NCBI RefSeq assembly: GCF_016695175.1 | Contig: NZ_CP068023.1 | Coordinates: 3,591,501 to 3,655,500 of the forward strand | From: Pseudoalteromonas sp. GCY | GTDB lineage: Bacteria > Pseudomonadota > Gammaproteobacteria > Enterobacterales > Alteromonadaceae | DNA: 64,000 bases | Direction: 5' to 3' | Shown: piece by piece, positions 33,126-38,021 of the stretch | Layout: every line of letters begins with the position of its first letter | Numbering within the stretch: position 1 is the stretch's first letter | Notes under the pieces: model-generated | What the model was told of the DNA's origin: nothing | Database searches by the model: none | What the model saw: only the letters and a program-made list of their open reading frames with translations | Program-made: the position numbers and the translations under genes

Positions 33126-33818
33126 ATGCTTACGATATCTCAATTACAGTTTACATGGCCTAAGTCGAGCACCCCGGTGCTAACCATACCTAAGCTACAT
33201 ATCGCCCGAGGTGAACACGTGTTTTTACATGGTCCAAGCGGCAGCGGTAAATCGACTTTGCTTGGACTTATTGCAGGCACCTTGGATTGCCAGCAGGGAG
33301 AAATTGAAATTGCAGGTACAAACGCGAGCGAACTGAGCCGTGGCCAACGAGATAAGTTTAGAGCCGACCATATAGGTACTATTTTTCAGAACTTTAATTT
33401 GTTGCCCTATTTATCGCCTATTGAAAACGTTACCCTTGGCTGCGAATTTTCCAAAAAACGCAGGCAAAACATTTCCTCACAGAATAGATCGCTTGAGCAG
33501 GAAGCCAAACTTCTGCTCTCTGATCTTGGTATAGACGAGCACACTCAGCACCGCAGTGTCGCGGAGTTAAGTATTGGCCAACAGCAGCGCGTAGCCGCCG
33601 CTCGCGCATTTATCGGCAGGCCCGAAATCATTATTGCCGACGAGCCAACCTCAGCTCTCGATGCCGACAGCCGTGATGGATTTATTAAATTACTCTTTAG
33701 CCAAGCCGCGGTTTACAGTGCATCTATTCTCTTTGTCAGTCACGATAAAAGCTTAGCGCCGTTATTTGATAGGCAAGTAAGCTTGCCTGATTTACAACAA
33801 GGAGCACCGCTATGCTAA
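33126..33818 (+). CDS. ABC transporter ATP-binding protein (MacB/LolD-like; ZrgB-like by context)
   Basis: 230-residue ATPase with Walker A GPSGSGKST (36-44), Q-loop GTIFQNFNLLPYLSPIENV, signature LSIGQQQRVAAARAF, and Walker B IIIADEPTSALD. It belongs to the MacB/LolD/FtsE subfamily. With the downstream FtsX-type permease and DUF3299 protein it resembles the zinc-regulated zrgBCD genes of Vibrio. Its stop overlaps the permease start by seven bases. The DUF2796 protein usually found with such systems is not in the window. Confidence 0.88.
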   Translation: MLTISQLQFTWPKSSTPVLTIPKLHIARGEHVFLHGPSGSGKSTLLGLIAGTLDCQQGEIEIAGTNASELSRGQRDKFRADHIGTIFQNFNLLPYLSPIENVTLGCEFSKKRRQNISSQNRSLEQEAKLLLSDLGIDEHTQHRSVAELSIGQQQRVAAARAFIGRPEIIIADEPTSALDADSRDGFIKLLFSQAAVYSASILFVSHDKSLAPLFDRQVSLPDLQQGAPLC

Positions 33819-35167
33819 TCAAACTTGCGTGGAAAAGTACGCTAAACCGAAAAGCCAGTGTCGCCCTAACTCTAGTGACCATTGCAATTAGTGTCATGTT
33901 ACTGCTGTCGGTTGAGCGTGTACGCCAAGACGCAAAATCCAGCTTTGCGAACACTATTTCTGGCACAGACCTGATTGTCGGCGCACGTACTGGTGATATT
34001 CAGCTATTGCTTTCAAGCGTATTTAGAATTGGTCATGCCAATAATGCCGTACAATGGCAAAGTTACGAGTACATCAAGGCACAACGCGGCGTTGCTTGGA
34101 GCATTCCCATTAGTTTAGGCGATAGCCACCAAGGCTTTGCTGTGCTGGGCACAGATGCAAGTTACTTCAGCCATTATCAATACGCTAAAAAGCAGCACCT
34201 CACCTTTGCCGCTGGTCGACCATTTCACAATGGCCAAGAAGTGGTGCTTGGGGCTATGGTCGCAAAAAAGCTAGGTTATCAGCTAGGACAAAAAATCGTC
34301 ATTTCTCATGGCATGGGCAATACCAGTTTCCATCATCATGATGATAATCCGCTGGTTATTTCTGGCATTTTGGCAGCCACGGGAACGCCTGTAGATAAAA
34401 CACTACATGTGCCGTTAAGTGCCATAGAGAGTATGCATAGCAAAGGCCACAGCAAGCCATCTCGAATGGTTGCACGAAAACAAGATGCAACGCAGCATGA
34501 GCATGAGCATGAGCATGAGCATGAGCATGAGCATGAGCATGAGCATGACAGTAAAAACAATAGCGCTCTACTTCACAACCTCGACTCTAAGCCCGGTGAT
34601 TTAATCGGTTCAACAAAGCAAATCACTGCATTTTTACTTGGTTTTGAGTCACCACTTTATACCCTACAAGTGCGCAGAAATATTAATCAGTATAAAGGTG
34701 AACCTTTACTGGCAATTATGCCGGGGGTGACATTGAGGGAATTGTGGGAAATGCTAGATATTGTCGAAAAAATCTTACTTCTCATTACCCTTGCTGTGGT
34801 GTTGATAAGCTTACTTGGCATGTTAACTTCGTTGCTCGCCACGTTGAATCAGAGGCGTCGAGAACTTGCTATTCTACGCTCCGTTGGTGCGCGGCCTTGG
34901 CATATTTTTACACTTCTCATTAGCGAAGCAATTTTTATCACCGTGTTAGGATGTGCTTTCGGTGTAGCGCTTTTTTATGCCTTGCTCATTGCTGCCCAAT
35001 CCAGCCTACAAAGTCAATTTGGCGTAGTCCTAAGTATCTCAACGCTCTCAACCTATGAACTCACGCTACTAAGCGTTATTATAGGTGCAGGTACTTTGAT
35101 CGGTGCCATTCCTGCCGCCCGTGCTTATTTTTACTCGCTTGCCGATGGCATGCAAATTAAAACCTAA
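33812..35167 (+). CDS. FtsX-type ABC permease with a His-Glu repeat (ZrgC-like)
   Basis: 451 residues with four membrane helices: one near residues 15-35, then three in the C-terminal third (LLITLAVVLISLLGMLTSLL, then IFTLLISEAIFITVLGCAFG, and the last around 415-440). The large periplasmic domain contains HEHEHEHEHEHEHEHEHD (nine His) at about residue 229, plus HHHDDN near 173. These are likely metal-binding, consistent with a zinc or other divalent metal role. The HE stretch is encoded by a hexanucleotide repeat. Second gene of the ATPase-permease-DUF3299 operon. Confidence 0.87.
   Translation: MLIKLAWKSTLNRKASVALTLVTIAISVMLLLSVERVRQDAKSSFANTISGTDLIVGARTGDIQLLLSSVFRIGHANNAVQWQSYEYIKAQRGVAWSIPISLGDSHQGFAVLGTDASYFSHYQYAKKQHLTFAAGRPFHNGQEVVLGAMVAKKLGYQLGQKIVISHGMGNTSFHHHDDNPLVISGILAATGTPVDKTLHVPLSAIESMHSKGHSKPSRMVARKQDATQHEHEHEHEHEHEHEHEHDSKNNSALLHNLDSKPGDLIGSTKQITAFLLGFESPLYTLQVRRNINQYKGEPLLAIMPGVTLRELWEMLDIVEKILLLITLAVVLISLLGMLTSLLATLNQRRRELAILRSVGARPWHIFTLLISEAIFITVLGCAFGVALFYALLIAAQSSLQSQFGVVLSISTLSTYELTLLSVIIGAGTLIGAIPAARAYFYSLADGMQIKT
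34496..34543 (+). repeat. Hexanucleotide microsatellite (CATGAG)8
   Basis: Eight perfect copies of CATGAG inside the permease gene, coding for (His-Glu)8. Each unit is six bases, so slippage would add or remove His-Glu pairs without breaking the frame. Confidence 0.95.
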
Positions 35168-35783: not shown

Positions 35784-36017
35784 CTACTCAGTAGTAGGAA
35801 CACTGGCATACACCAGTTCGATGAGATTATTCATGGTCCGCGACTTTTGCATATACGCCTTTTCCATATACGCCAGCTCCTGGAGCTCAAATAAGGTACT
35901 CTCTACAAGAGAAAACCACTTAGTGGTCGTCTCAGCTATCTCAACCTCTCCGCGACTCGATTTTTTAAGTGCTTCATAGAGAATATTTAAGTCGTTATAT
36001 TGACGTAGATAATCCAT
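35784..36017 (-). CDS. Small helical protein of unknown function
   Basis: 77 residues starting MDYLRQYNDLNILYEALKKS, predicted almost wholly alpha-helical and acidic. The ATG is preceded by GAGGGTGAT, and an intrinsic terminator lies downstream on the same strand, so the transcription unit looks real. The plus-strand frame over the same bases has no ribosome site. I recognise no family. It could be a small regulatory or phage-derived helical protein. Confidence 0.6.
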   Translation of the reverse strand: MDYLRQYNDLNILYEALKKSSRGEVEIAETTTKWFSLVESTLFELQELAYMEKAYMQKSRTMNNLIELVYASVPTTE

Positions 36018-36292
36018 ATCACCCTCAGTCAGTTGTTACCCTTGTTTAATTTCACACTACAGTAACAAAAGCCTCGCTAAAAAATCTTGTCGAACCCATT
36101 TTTCTATTAAAATGATGAAAATAAAGTGAAAAGTACACGTAGGTTCTGAAGCGATATATCCATAATTGACTAATTAAATTTCCTCTTGCAGAAACATTTT
36201 TATTGATTACAATTACAAATTAACAAAGATTACACATAAAAATAACTTGGGTGACACTGAGCAGACTCCCCATGCAAGAAAGGACTAAATTG

Positions 36293-36589
36293 GTGGGCAA
36301 TCCCTATTTTAAATATAACGGTGACGACCTTAGAAGAATGCGCCTTGCTGCCCAAAAAACCACGCAGCAAATGGCTGATCTTGTGGGTATTAGCCGCCAA
36401 ACCTACGAAAACTATGAAAATGGTGTAAGCCGTATACCTTGGGATCACTTTCAGGTCTGGTGTAACTACTGTGATATTGACCTTTCTCCCATTATAAAAC
36501 AGTTTCAAGCGCTACGGAGCTTAATTAGTGATACCCAATTAAGGCGTAAAAGCCCAACCTCTCCTGATGCAAAGAAAGTGGAAGAGTAA
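36293..36589 (+). CDS. Small helix-turn-helix (XRE-like) regulator of the peptide cassette
   Basis: About 98 residues from a GTG at 36293 with AAGGA eight bases upstream; a TTG at 36290 or an ATG at 36272 are alternatives. The N-terminal half is a lambda-repressor-type helix-turn-helix: DDLRRMRLAAQKTTQQMADL then VGISRQTYENYENGVSRIP. It then has a short helical part (WCNYCDIDLSPIIKQFQALR) and a polar tail. It lies 35 bp before the first peptide gene, same strand, so it likely regulates the cassette; that is inference from position. Confidence 0.75.
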   Translation: MGNPYFKYNGDDLRRMRLAAQKTTQQMADLVGISRQTYENYENGVSRIPWDHFQVWCNYCDIDLSPIIKQFQALRSLISDTQLRRKSPTSPDAKKVEE

Positions 36590-36624
36590 TATCAGTTGAT
36601 TTAAGCTGCAAAAGGAATAAAAGA

Positions 36625-36798
36625 ATGAAATTTGTAATGCAAAAAAAATTTCGTAAGGTAATGAAAATCAAAAAGTTACCAATGTACAGTGTAGAGTCCA
36701 TTAAAGGTGGCAGCCTAGGAGTGGTTAAACATGACCCTCGAACTTCCTCTATAGCTTCTCATGGTGGAACAGTAGTAGATCCAAAACTAGGCACATAA
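36625..36798 (+). CDS. Double-glycine peptide A, putative secreted-peptide precursor
   Basis: 57-codon ORF with AAGGAATAAA before the ATG. The N-terminal half is strongly basic (MKFVMQKKFRKVMKIKKLP), followed by YSVESIKGG (Gly28-Gly29) and a 28-residue tail, SLGVVKHDPRTSS then IASHGGTVVDPKLGT. The tail contains two (V)V-x-DP motifs, the second after another GG, as if the unit were duplicated. No Cys. Layout fits a leader cut after Gly-Gly, as in class II bacteriocin or RiPP precursors. It is related to peptide B and to the peptide at 13632-13790. Coding support comes from the ribosome site and this conservation. Confidence 0.65.
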   Translation: MKFVMQKKFRKVMKIKKLPMYSVESIKGGSLGVVKHDPRTSSIASHGGTVVDPKLGT

Positions 36799-36892
36799 GC
36801 TACTTTAGCTTTACAAAATATTCTCAATAGGTGAGTTTCAGAGTACAGTATTAATGACTTTAACCACTGCAAAAACCTATAAGGAATAGAAG

Positions 36893-37039
36893 ATGAGATA
36901 TTCAAATAAAGTCAAAAGTACTAAAAGAGTCCGTTTTGTTGTGCTAAATAGCCATTTCCTAGAGCATATAACGGGTGGGAGTGATGGCTCAATCAAGGAC
37001 GACCCTAAGTTAGAGCCTAAATCTGAAAAGCCAGGCTAA
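36893..37039 (+). CDS. Double-glycine peptide B, putative secreted-peptide precursor
   Basis: 48-codon ORF preceded by AAGGAATAG. Basic N-terminal part (MRYSNKVKSTKRVRFVVLN), then FLEHITGG (Gly28-Gly29) and the tail SDGSIKDDPKLEPKSEKPG. Against peptide A the boundary aligns residue for residue: VESIKGGSLGVVKHDPR versus LEHITGGSDGSIKDDPK, a shared E-x-I-x-GGS-x-G-x-[VI]K-x-DP pattern. This makes chance ORFs unlikely. The product would be a 19-residue hydrophilic peptide if cut after Gly-Gly. Confidence 0.65.
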   Translation: MRYSNKVKSTKRVRFVVLNSHFLEHITGGSDGSIKDDPKLEPKSEKPG

Positions 37040-37071
37040 GCCTCAACTAGTACCTTTATTAAGGTTAAGAA

Positions 37072-37752
37072 ATGAACAAATCACTAGTTTTTTTATTTAT
37101 CATGTTTCTCGTTGCAACGGGATTTATACATACACTTATTATTCTGGAGCAAACTACGTACCTTCCTATGTTAGCTTTAGTTTTTATTTTAGCGATATTT
37201 TCCAAAGAGCAGCTTAATATTACGCACCTATCTACTGTATTGATAGCAATTATAATTTTAGAGTTTTCGCTTGTATCTTTCGTAGAAAATCTTTTCGCTA
37301 ATGCTCCTCCATATAAACAAAACATGTTTATTGTAGGCATTCATTTCATCTGCGACTTACTAACCTATCTAACTATCAAGAATAGAGTAAGGTTCTCTTT
37401 GAGATTTGTGAATAAATTCCAAAAAGCTAGGAAAGAATATATCTACATGACACATGCCGATATCATACTTGTTGGGATCTTCTTTTTGTTTATGCTTGTA
37501 GACTTAGCAGCTTTCGCTGAGAACATTATTCGTAATCTAGAACACTTTGGAGTAGATGAAGATTTTGCAAAACAATTTTGGAAGTGGGGTATCGTTCATT
37601 ATAGCTACCCATATTTAAAATCCGTTTTATTGGCGGCTGTTATTACCACACTTCTAGCTACTATCTATGTTGAACGTTTTCGTCCTGCGCCAATTAAAGA
37701 AAGTGAAGAAGACTCAACGCTTAAAAAATCCGAGCCACAGCATTGGTCATAG
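37072..37752 (+). CDS. Polytopic membrane protein of the peptide cassette
   Basis: 226 residues with about five membrane helices (roughly 5-24, 31-43, 53-72, 86-102, 130-148 and possibly 182-199) and a hydrophilic, acidic C-terminal tail. I know no named family. DLLT (95-98), DLAAFAEN (144-151) and FWKWG (169-173) occur in the same order as DLLT, DLAIFE and WWFW in the membrane protein at 13069-13596, which also follows a short Gly-rich peptide. It starts 32 bp after peptide B. Possible functions are self-immunity, export help or peptide sensing; none is shown by sequence. Confidence 0.72.
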   Translation: MNKSLVFLFIMFLVATGFIHTLIILEQTTYLPMLALVFILAIFSKEQLNITHLSTVLIAIIILEFSLVSFVENLFANAPPYKQNMFIVGIHFICDLLTYLTIKNRVRFSLRFVNKFQKARKEYIYMTHADIILVGIFFLFMLVDLAAFAENIIRNLEHFGVDEDFAKQFWKWGIVHYSYPYLKSVLLAAVITTLLATIYVERFRPAPIKESEEDSTLKKSEPQHWS

Positions 37753-37796
37753 TGATCTGTGCTGCTTTTACCCTAAATCAATTGAAGGAATAAACG

Positions 37797-38021
37797 ATGG
37801 ATTTAAAACTGAACAAAAAGCAATTGAAGTCATTAGCAGGTAGTAAGCTAATTTTGGATAACAACAAGACCCGTGAGATTGGTGGTGGTTGTTCCTACTA
37901 TTGTAGTCGCGACTTAAACTGTGACCCCGATGGCCCAACGATGGTCTGCCCATCAAAAGCATTAGCGTGTATTCCTGAGCCAAATACATTACATTGTGAT
38001 TGCCCAACCAATATGTGCTAG
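37797..38021 (+). CDS. Cys-rich peptide with a GGG boundary
   Basis: 74 residues with GAAGGAATAAAC before the ATG. The leader-like first half, MDLKLNKKQLKSLAGSKLIL and then DNNKTREIGGG (Gly29-31), precedes a 43-residue segment with eight Cys (32, 36, 42, 51, 58, 67, 69, 74), rich in Pro and Asp. Eight Cys could form four disulfides after export, or be thioether or metal sites. The leader differs from peptides A and B but resembles the K-L-N-K-K-x-L-K-x-L type leaders I associate with alteromonad small peptides. Last gene of the cassette, 44 bp after the membrane protein. Confidence 0.72.
   Translation: MDLKLNKKQLKSLAGSKLILDNNKTREIGGGCSYYCSRDLNCDPDGPTMVCPSKALACIPEPNTLHCDCPTNMC

Follow-up and report, generated by a model that had tools for sequence, protein, structure and literature searches.

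A five-gene cassette in the genome of Pseudoalteromonas sp. GCY reads, on a balance that tips modestly in its favor, as a pherotype-like peptide signalling system of a Gram-negative host, with a candidate ligand, receptor and one-component regulator predicted from sequence. The cassette lies in the window, the whole 64,000-nucleotide stretch of DNA that was analysed (C2:3591501-3655500), within a genome of 5.47 Mb and two contigs, and the host was judged from its named relatives to be a Pseudoalteromonas of the flavipulchra/piscicida group. The initial annotation had guessed at a secreted signal, a bacteriocin or an adhesin, and among these sensing fits better than the other two, because some paralogues of the membrane protein carry fused helix-turn-helix (HTH) domains and because the peptides co-vary with the N-terminal part of that protein. 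Searches for a published account of this cassette found none.

All five genes lie on the plus strand. The first encodes an Xre/Cro-C1 HTH regulator of ~99 aa (36290..36589, with either TTG at 36290 or GTG at 36293 as its start), and is followed by the precursors of peptide A (57 aa, 36625..36798) and peptide B (48 aa, 36893..37039), by a 226-aa membrane protein that is a putative peptide receptor (37072..37752), and by a 74-aa Cys-rich peptide (37797..38021). The intergenic gaps are 35, 94, 32 and 44 bp. The operon stands in coordinates and spacing as it had been placed, and its genes are more than chance reading frames. The element AAGGAATA, also noted earlier and read here from the sequence, is found 5' of genes A, B and the Cys-rich gene, and is lacking before the membrane-protein gene. 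Pfam and NCBIfam gave a family above cut-off for only the regulator among the five genes (PF13560 at 35.1 bits and PF01381 at 32.4 bits, these HTH domains being all that was recognised in it); none reached its cut-off for A, B or the membrane protein, in line with the earlier reading of an undescribed system.

Divergent from the cassette is a gene for a 77-aa protein (35784..36017, minus strand), a companion gene in the same clade, which has no match in Pfam. It is present in 10 of the 108 genus genomes, and in this genome it occurs in four copies, at four of the five membrane-protein loci: the window locus, loci 2 and 3, and a site ~2 kb or less from the tandem array, being absent at the small cassette copy (L036). 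Farther upstream, at 33812-35167 on the plus strand, the window also encodes a 451-aa predicted membrane protein with approximately ten His-Glu repeats in a run.

The regulator gene has a dN/dS of 0.07, with its product 92–100% identical among eight genomes, and peptide B has values of 0.20–0.47 inside one allele group (three pairs). Peptide A alone is nearly neutral, with a mean of 0.82 (15 pairs from six genomes) that indicates weak purifying selection only; by part, its core gives 0.59 and its leader 2.5, the latter value resting on few changes. A check for homologues of peptide A found 11 relatives besides itself, at 70–89% identity.

Both precursors have leaders that end in G28-G29 and are of the C39 type, with L-12, V-7 and I-4 before the Gly-Gly in A and L-12, L-7 and I-4 in B, which supports their earlier description as precursors cut during export. 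Peptides A (ESIKGGSLGVVKHDP) and B (EHITGGSDGSIKDDP) align across the Gly-Gly boundary as had been claimed. The predicted mature part of A (36712-36795) has 28 aa, and that of B (36980-37036), which is allele-specific, is the 19-aa core SDGSIKDDPKLEPKSEKPG, with the pattern S-x-G-x-x-K-x-D-P-[KR]; SHGGTVDDPKLKSDGSNGG is the core of another peptide allele. The cores of A and B center on SxGxxKxDP, and neither peptide contains Cys. Across 23 aligned windows of such peptides, the leader consensus is hydrophobic at -4, -7 and -12, with GG at -2/-1. The groove of the C39 protease admits leader residues -12, -7 and -4, and the recognition motif of the studied enzyme falls within the last 13 residues of the leader, as described in PMC6363468. 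With the motif so placed, each repeat of a polyprotein precursor could be cut.

Such polyproteins occur at two further loci of this genome. Locus 2 (L033) comprises an HTH gene, a 262-aa polyprotein with seven GG units and a membrane protein, while locus 3 (L034) has the same order of genes around a 177-aa polyprotein with three scored units. A motif of 22 leader and core positions, built from 21 units and approximating L-x7-V-x-GG-[ST]-x-G-x4-D-P-[KR], scored 12 or more in a single ORF among 58,501 from Markov-shuffled loci. Genome-wide, it gave 12 strong matches (E ≤ 6e-6), all confined to the window locus, locus 2 and locus 3; the next-best match had an E-value of 0.14, and the peptides of the array have diverged too far to be picked up in this way. 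Within 2.5 kb of 110 distinct membrane proteins from the loci examined (fragments included), motif ORFs lay upstream on the same strand 75 times, downstream on the same strand 13 times and on the opposite strand never, these 88 counts including ORFs common to neighboring array copies, which were counted once per copy. A motif ORF lies no more than 1.3 kb upstream of only 49 of the 110 membrane proteins, or 31 of 92 when the training loci are set aside, and some of those without one have GG peptides recognised by eye.

The membrane protein itself has eight matches in this genome and is present in 32 of the 108 Pseudoalteromonas genomes. Profile searches found it in at least 26 of 395 genomes and at least 9 of 52 genera at the family level, with up to seven candidates scored in each genome. 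Among 394 genomes sampled from the order it was found in four, three of them Pseudoalteromonas and one a weak match (E 8e-4) with stops. Tandem arrays of membrane-protein genes carry few or no peptides; in the six array members of L117, for example, no peptide was detected. One such array (L035) lies on the other contig of this genome and includes HTH-membrane fusions. At the end of this array (L035:4921-5653) there is a Fic-domain gene with a 51-aa ORF upstream, which we take to be a possible toxin-antitoxin pair. In Pseudoalteromonas sp. HM-SA03 (L122), the membrane-protein gene is split into two ORFs and looks broken.

A confident AlphaFold2 model of the 226-aa membrane protein is all-helical (pLDDT 87.7, pTM 0.79). 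Searches for fold and sequence relatives found none, and no Pfam or NCBIfam family, histidine kinase included, scored above cut-off in it. The distribution of charge suits an arrangement in which both ends would be inside, a strongly basic loop at residues 105-128 would also be inside, and the conserved E150-N151-x-x-R154-N, in the more conserved C-terminal part, would cap a late helix on its outer side.

The tie between this protein and transcription is drawn from the position of the HTH regulator. Among the 110 membrane proteins, an HTH gene lies directly upstream on the same strand of 72 and is fused to 24; of the other 14, nine have an HTH only downstream on the same strand and five have none, and in no case was an HTH found only on the opposite strand. 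With the two proteins adjoining or fused in 96 of 110 cases, the membrane protein is linked to transcription, and the treatment of the pair as one unit is upheld. The predicted structure of one fusion (pLDDT 78, pTM 0.58) has an HTH part at approximately residues 1-80, a linker at 82-100 with pLDDT below 50, and then the membrane helices. No operator motif shared across the upstream regions compared was found.

The cassette contains a hypervariable block (36893..37440) that takes in peptide B and the first ~124 residues of the membrane protein. When the window locus was compared with eight other genomes in 90-bp windows, the stretch 36922-37371, which begins shortly after the start of peptide B and runs on into the gene for the membrane protein, was 38–59% identical to seven of the eight, with large gaps in G040 and G072, and the low identity extended to ~37640 in six of the seven divergent genomes. 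In G075, G083, G045, G034 and G046, identity is mostly 90–100%, with single windows down to 80%, in the flanks and across the HTH gene, gene A and the Cys-rich gene, and peptide A lies outside the block in the five closest genomes. G040 and G047 show lower identity, with their flanks and peptide A region partly unalignable, and the G072 sequence has no upstream part. The eighth genome, G075, is 100% identical to the present one (G000) over eight 90-bp windows (36832-37551) while their flanks differ, and an allele common to two genomes with differing flanks suggests exchange of the block.

A similar pattern recurs at the other two loci. At locus 2, the block again lies between conserved flanks; one allele is common to G045 and G072, and to G083 as far as its contig extends, G034, G046 and G018 carry other alleles, G047 is intermediate, and the alignment of G075 ended at the start of the polyprotein. 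The polyprotein of this locus has from one to seven scored GG units among nine genomes. Locus 3 has the same hypervariable pattern in protein identities. Across the three loci, median identity is 95–97% for the HTH protein (range 86–100), 31–43% for the N-terminal part of the membrane protein and 72–86% for its C-terminal part. Genomes that are similar in the last peptide unit are also similar in the N-terminal part, with a Mantel r of 0.95 (p 2e-4, eight genomes) and, at the two other loci, of 0.92 (p 5e-5, nine genomes) and 0.99 (p 0.017, five genomes), yet because neighboring genes move together this co-variation is also expected from block transfer and from a toxin-immunity pair, and does not separate the latter from a ligand and its receptor. 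The C-terminal part tracks less (0.53, 0.76 and 0.09) and HTH identity does not track (-0.01, 0.14 and -0.42); a Spearman test at locus 1 alone was not significant.

Export of the peptides would depend on a remote transporter, as the initial annotation had implied. A genome-wide check gave a sole C39 ABC transporter, at C2:4118971-4119354 (E 1.9e-34), ~490 kb from the window cassette, whose product also has ABC_membrane and ABC_tran domains and whose gene neighbors are an ORF that is HlyD-like by eye, LanC, LanB and a precursor with an LNKK leader. Beyond the genus, genomes with the receptor show no enrichment for C39, since 9 of 12 have a strong match versus 14 of 19 that lack the receptor. 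Of 10 membrane-protein genes examined in three other genera (g44, g33 and g47), seven have a small ORF downstream that satisfies a simple signal-peptide rule. Six of the seven carry SGGTKGDP (twice in two of them), TGTKTPDP, SGPKKPDP, SGSKQPDP or SGINKPPP, and the seventh carries GGSKSGGDP. The core pattern alone was found in 10 of 39,493 shuffled ORFs, and in none together with the signal-peptide rule, the pattern having been written after viewing the peptides and the rule being a loose one. Among genomes with these Sec-type ORFs, G150 has no C39 match and G187, G210 and G153 have one. That a similar core is retained across a switch between C39-type and Sec-type export points to the core as the functional unit. 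In G121 (g15, L166) and G205 (g25, L170), the upstream peptides are of neither the GG-leader nor the Sec type, ending in GSSDGNGGKPK and YTGAGGHTGPKPV, respectively; no strong C39 match was found in these two genomes.

Taken as a signalling system, the cassette could work as follows. Peptide B, and A likewise, would be made with a double-glycine leader and would be cut and exported by the remote C39 transporter, after which the core would act from the periplasmic side on the adjacent multi-pass membrane protein. The variable N-terminal helices of that protein may read the variable part of the peptide, and the conserved E-N-x-x-R-N end of the late helix perhaps reads its near-invariant D-P-K/R. 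The receptor would then pass its state to the upstream or fused Xre-type protein and alter transcription, and exchange of the block would conceivably divide populations into groups responsive to different peptides.

The main rival, which we consider unlikely though it deserves to be taken seriously, is a bacteriocin and its immunity protein. By this account peptide B and the units of the polyproteins would be C39-exported and would kill, the membrane protein would confer immunity, the HTH protein would control production, and the arrays would be collections of orphan immunity genes. A double-glycine leader beside a small membrane protein is in keeping with such a pair, as are the allele-specific co-variation and the arrays with few or no peptides. 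Moreover, the bacteriocin leader model TIGR01847, which A and B do not match, scores 35 bits (cut-off 15.7) on a related polyprotein from another genus (L081), and 6 of 17 distinct last-unit cores from the three loci have a net positive charge. However, an HTH fused to 24 of the 110 membrane proteins, in arrays and elsewhere, would be odd for immunity, and each of the 17 cores is hydrophilic, with GRAVY values from -0.40 to -1.92 (the core of window peptide A is at -0.18), lengths of 11–33 aa and nine of them at 21 aa or less. A Sec-type signal peptide would, in addition, presumably place a toxin in the producer's own periplasm.

A peptide exported by Sec would stay in the periplasm, a location as compatible with autocrine or envelope sensing as with signalling between cells. 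It is conceivable, if rather improbable, that the peptide is a ligand in the periplasm or at the surface through which the receptor and HTH protein monitor how the cell's own export or outer membrane is faring, with allele diversity arising from co-evolution or from escape from agents that use the receptor. The Sec-type versions in three genera would then need no dedicated outer-membrane route, and the charge distribution of the membrane protein is compatible with periplasmic loops. Nevertheless, C39 type 1 systems normally release their peptide outside the cell, and shared alleles in differing flanks are more typical of recognition at the level of populations.

The Cys-rich peptide, in contrast to its initial placement in the A/B system, has another type of leader and is linked to LanB and LanC. 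Its LNKK-type leader ends in GGG, is followed by eight Cys, and is identical at 13 of 31 positions to that of the LanBC-adjacent precursor. Peptides with LNKK leaders and LanB are each present in 51 of the 108 genus genomes, and a comparison of the two lists shows these to be the same genomes. Because of this leader match and shared distribution, the peptide is probably a class I lanthipeptide precursor that is modified in trans, in a separate pathway. The curated leader model NF038153 matches neither it nor the LanBC-adjacent precursor; since even the latter is missed, the model may not cover such leaders. LNKK leaders reach up to 46 matches per genome among the matches listed, across contigs and some with stops, and genomes with LanB usually have one; possibly, then, one class I enzyme set serves many remote precursors. 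In G045 (C1:2714306-2714507), the Cys-rich gene appears as two matches and looks broken. The pci cluster of Pseudoalteromonas citrea, a class I lanthipeptide system (PMC9993889), resembles the LanB, LanC, C39 exporter and LNKK-leader precursor at ~C2:4.11 Mb, but the window Cys-rich precursor is ~490 kb from these enzymes, and such a pathway does not account for A, B or the membrane protein. That all five genes form one lanthipeptide operon, with A and B modified too, is very improbable: the Cys-rich gene lies directly downstream and LanB/LanC are in the genome, but A and B lack Cys, the leader types differ, and G028 has the membrane protein, C39 and a GG peptide by eye (below the motif threshold) with neither LanB nor an LNKK leader.

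With peptide signalling as the preferred reading, the cassette has close to an even chance of representing a new class of cell-cell communication, comprising S-G-x-K-x-D-P-like peptides exported by C39 or Sec (some as polyproteins), a new family of multi-pass receptors acting on or fused to Xre-type proteins, pherotype-like alleles at several loci, and arrays of orphan receptors. If true, this would provide a new receptor class, a new means of linking an extracellular peptide to a DNA-binding protein, and existing allele pairs with which self-recognition could be tested in Gram-negative bacteria.

Each of the known systems shares part of this picture. Double-glycine pheromones and class II bacteriocins, the substrates of PCATs, have the same L-12, hydrophobic -7/-4 and GG, and a C39 exporter is present in the genome; the cassette differs in its remote exporter, its tandem multi-unit precursors with repeated leader-like segments, its hydrophilic S-x-G-x-x-K-x-D-P-type cores and its membrane partner of no known family. 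RRNPP systems likewise have an HTH regulator governed by a peptide. They are named as cytosolic peptide receptors in PMC13220807, whereas the cassette has a multi-pass membrane partner and a short HTH protein without a TPR-HTH fusion. Matched polymorphic peptide-receptor pheromones are best known in Gram-positive bacteria, and a similar evolutionary signature is found here in marine Gammaproteobacteria. The agr system has the same pherotype likeness to the cassette as does ComQXPA. In ComQXPA of Bacillus (PMC4008528), as in the cassette, a variable peptide is paired with a variable N-terminal part of the receptor and with conserved partners, and strain groups are expected; the comQXPA census in that paper reports none outside the Firmicutes. 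Unlike either system, the cassette has no recognised histidine kinase domain, response regulator, or processing or prenylation enzyme in its locus, and its partner is instead an Xre-type HTH protein in a Gram-negative host.
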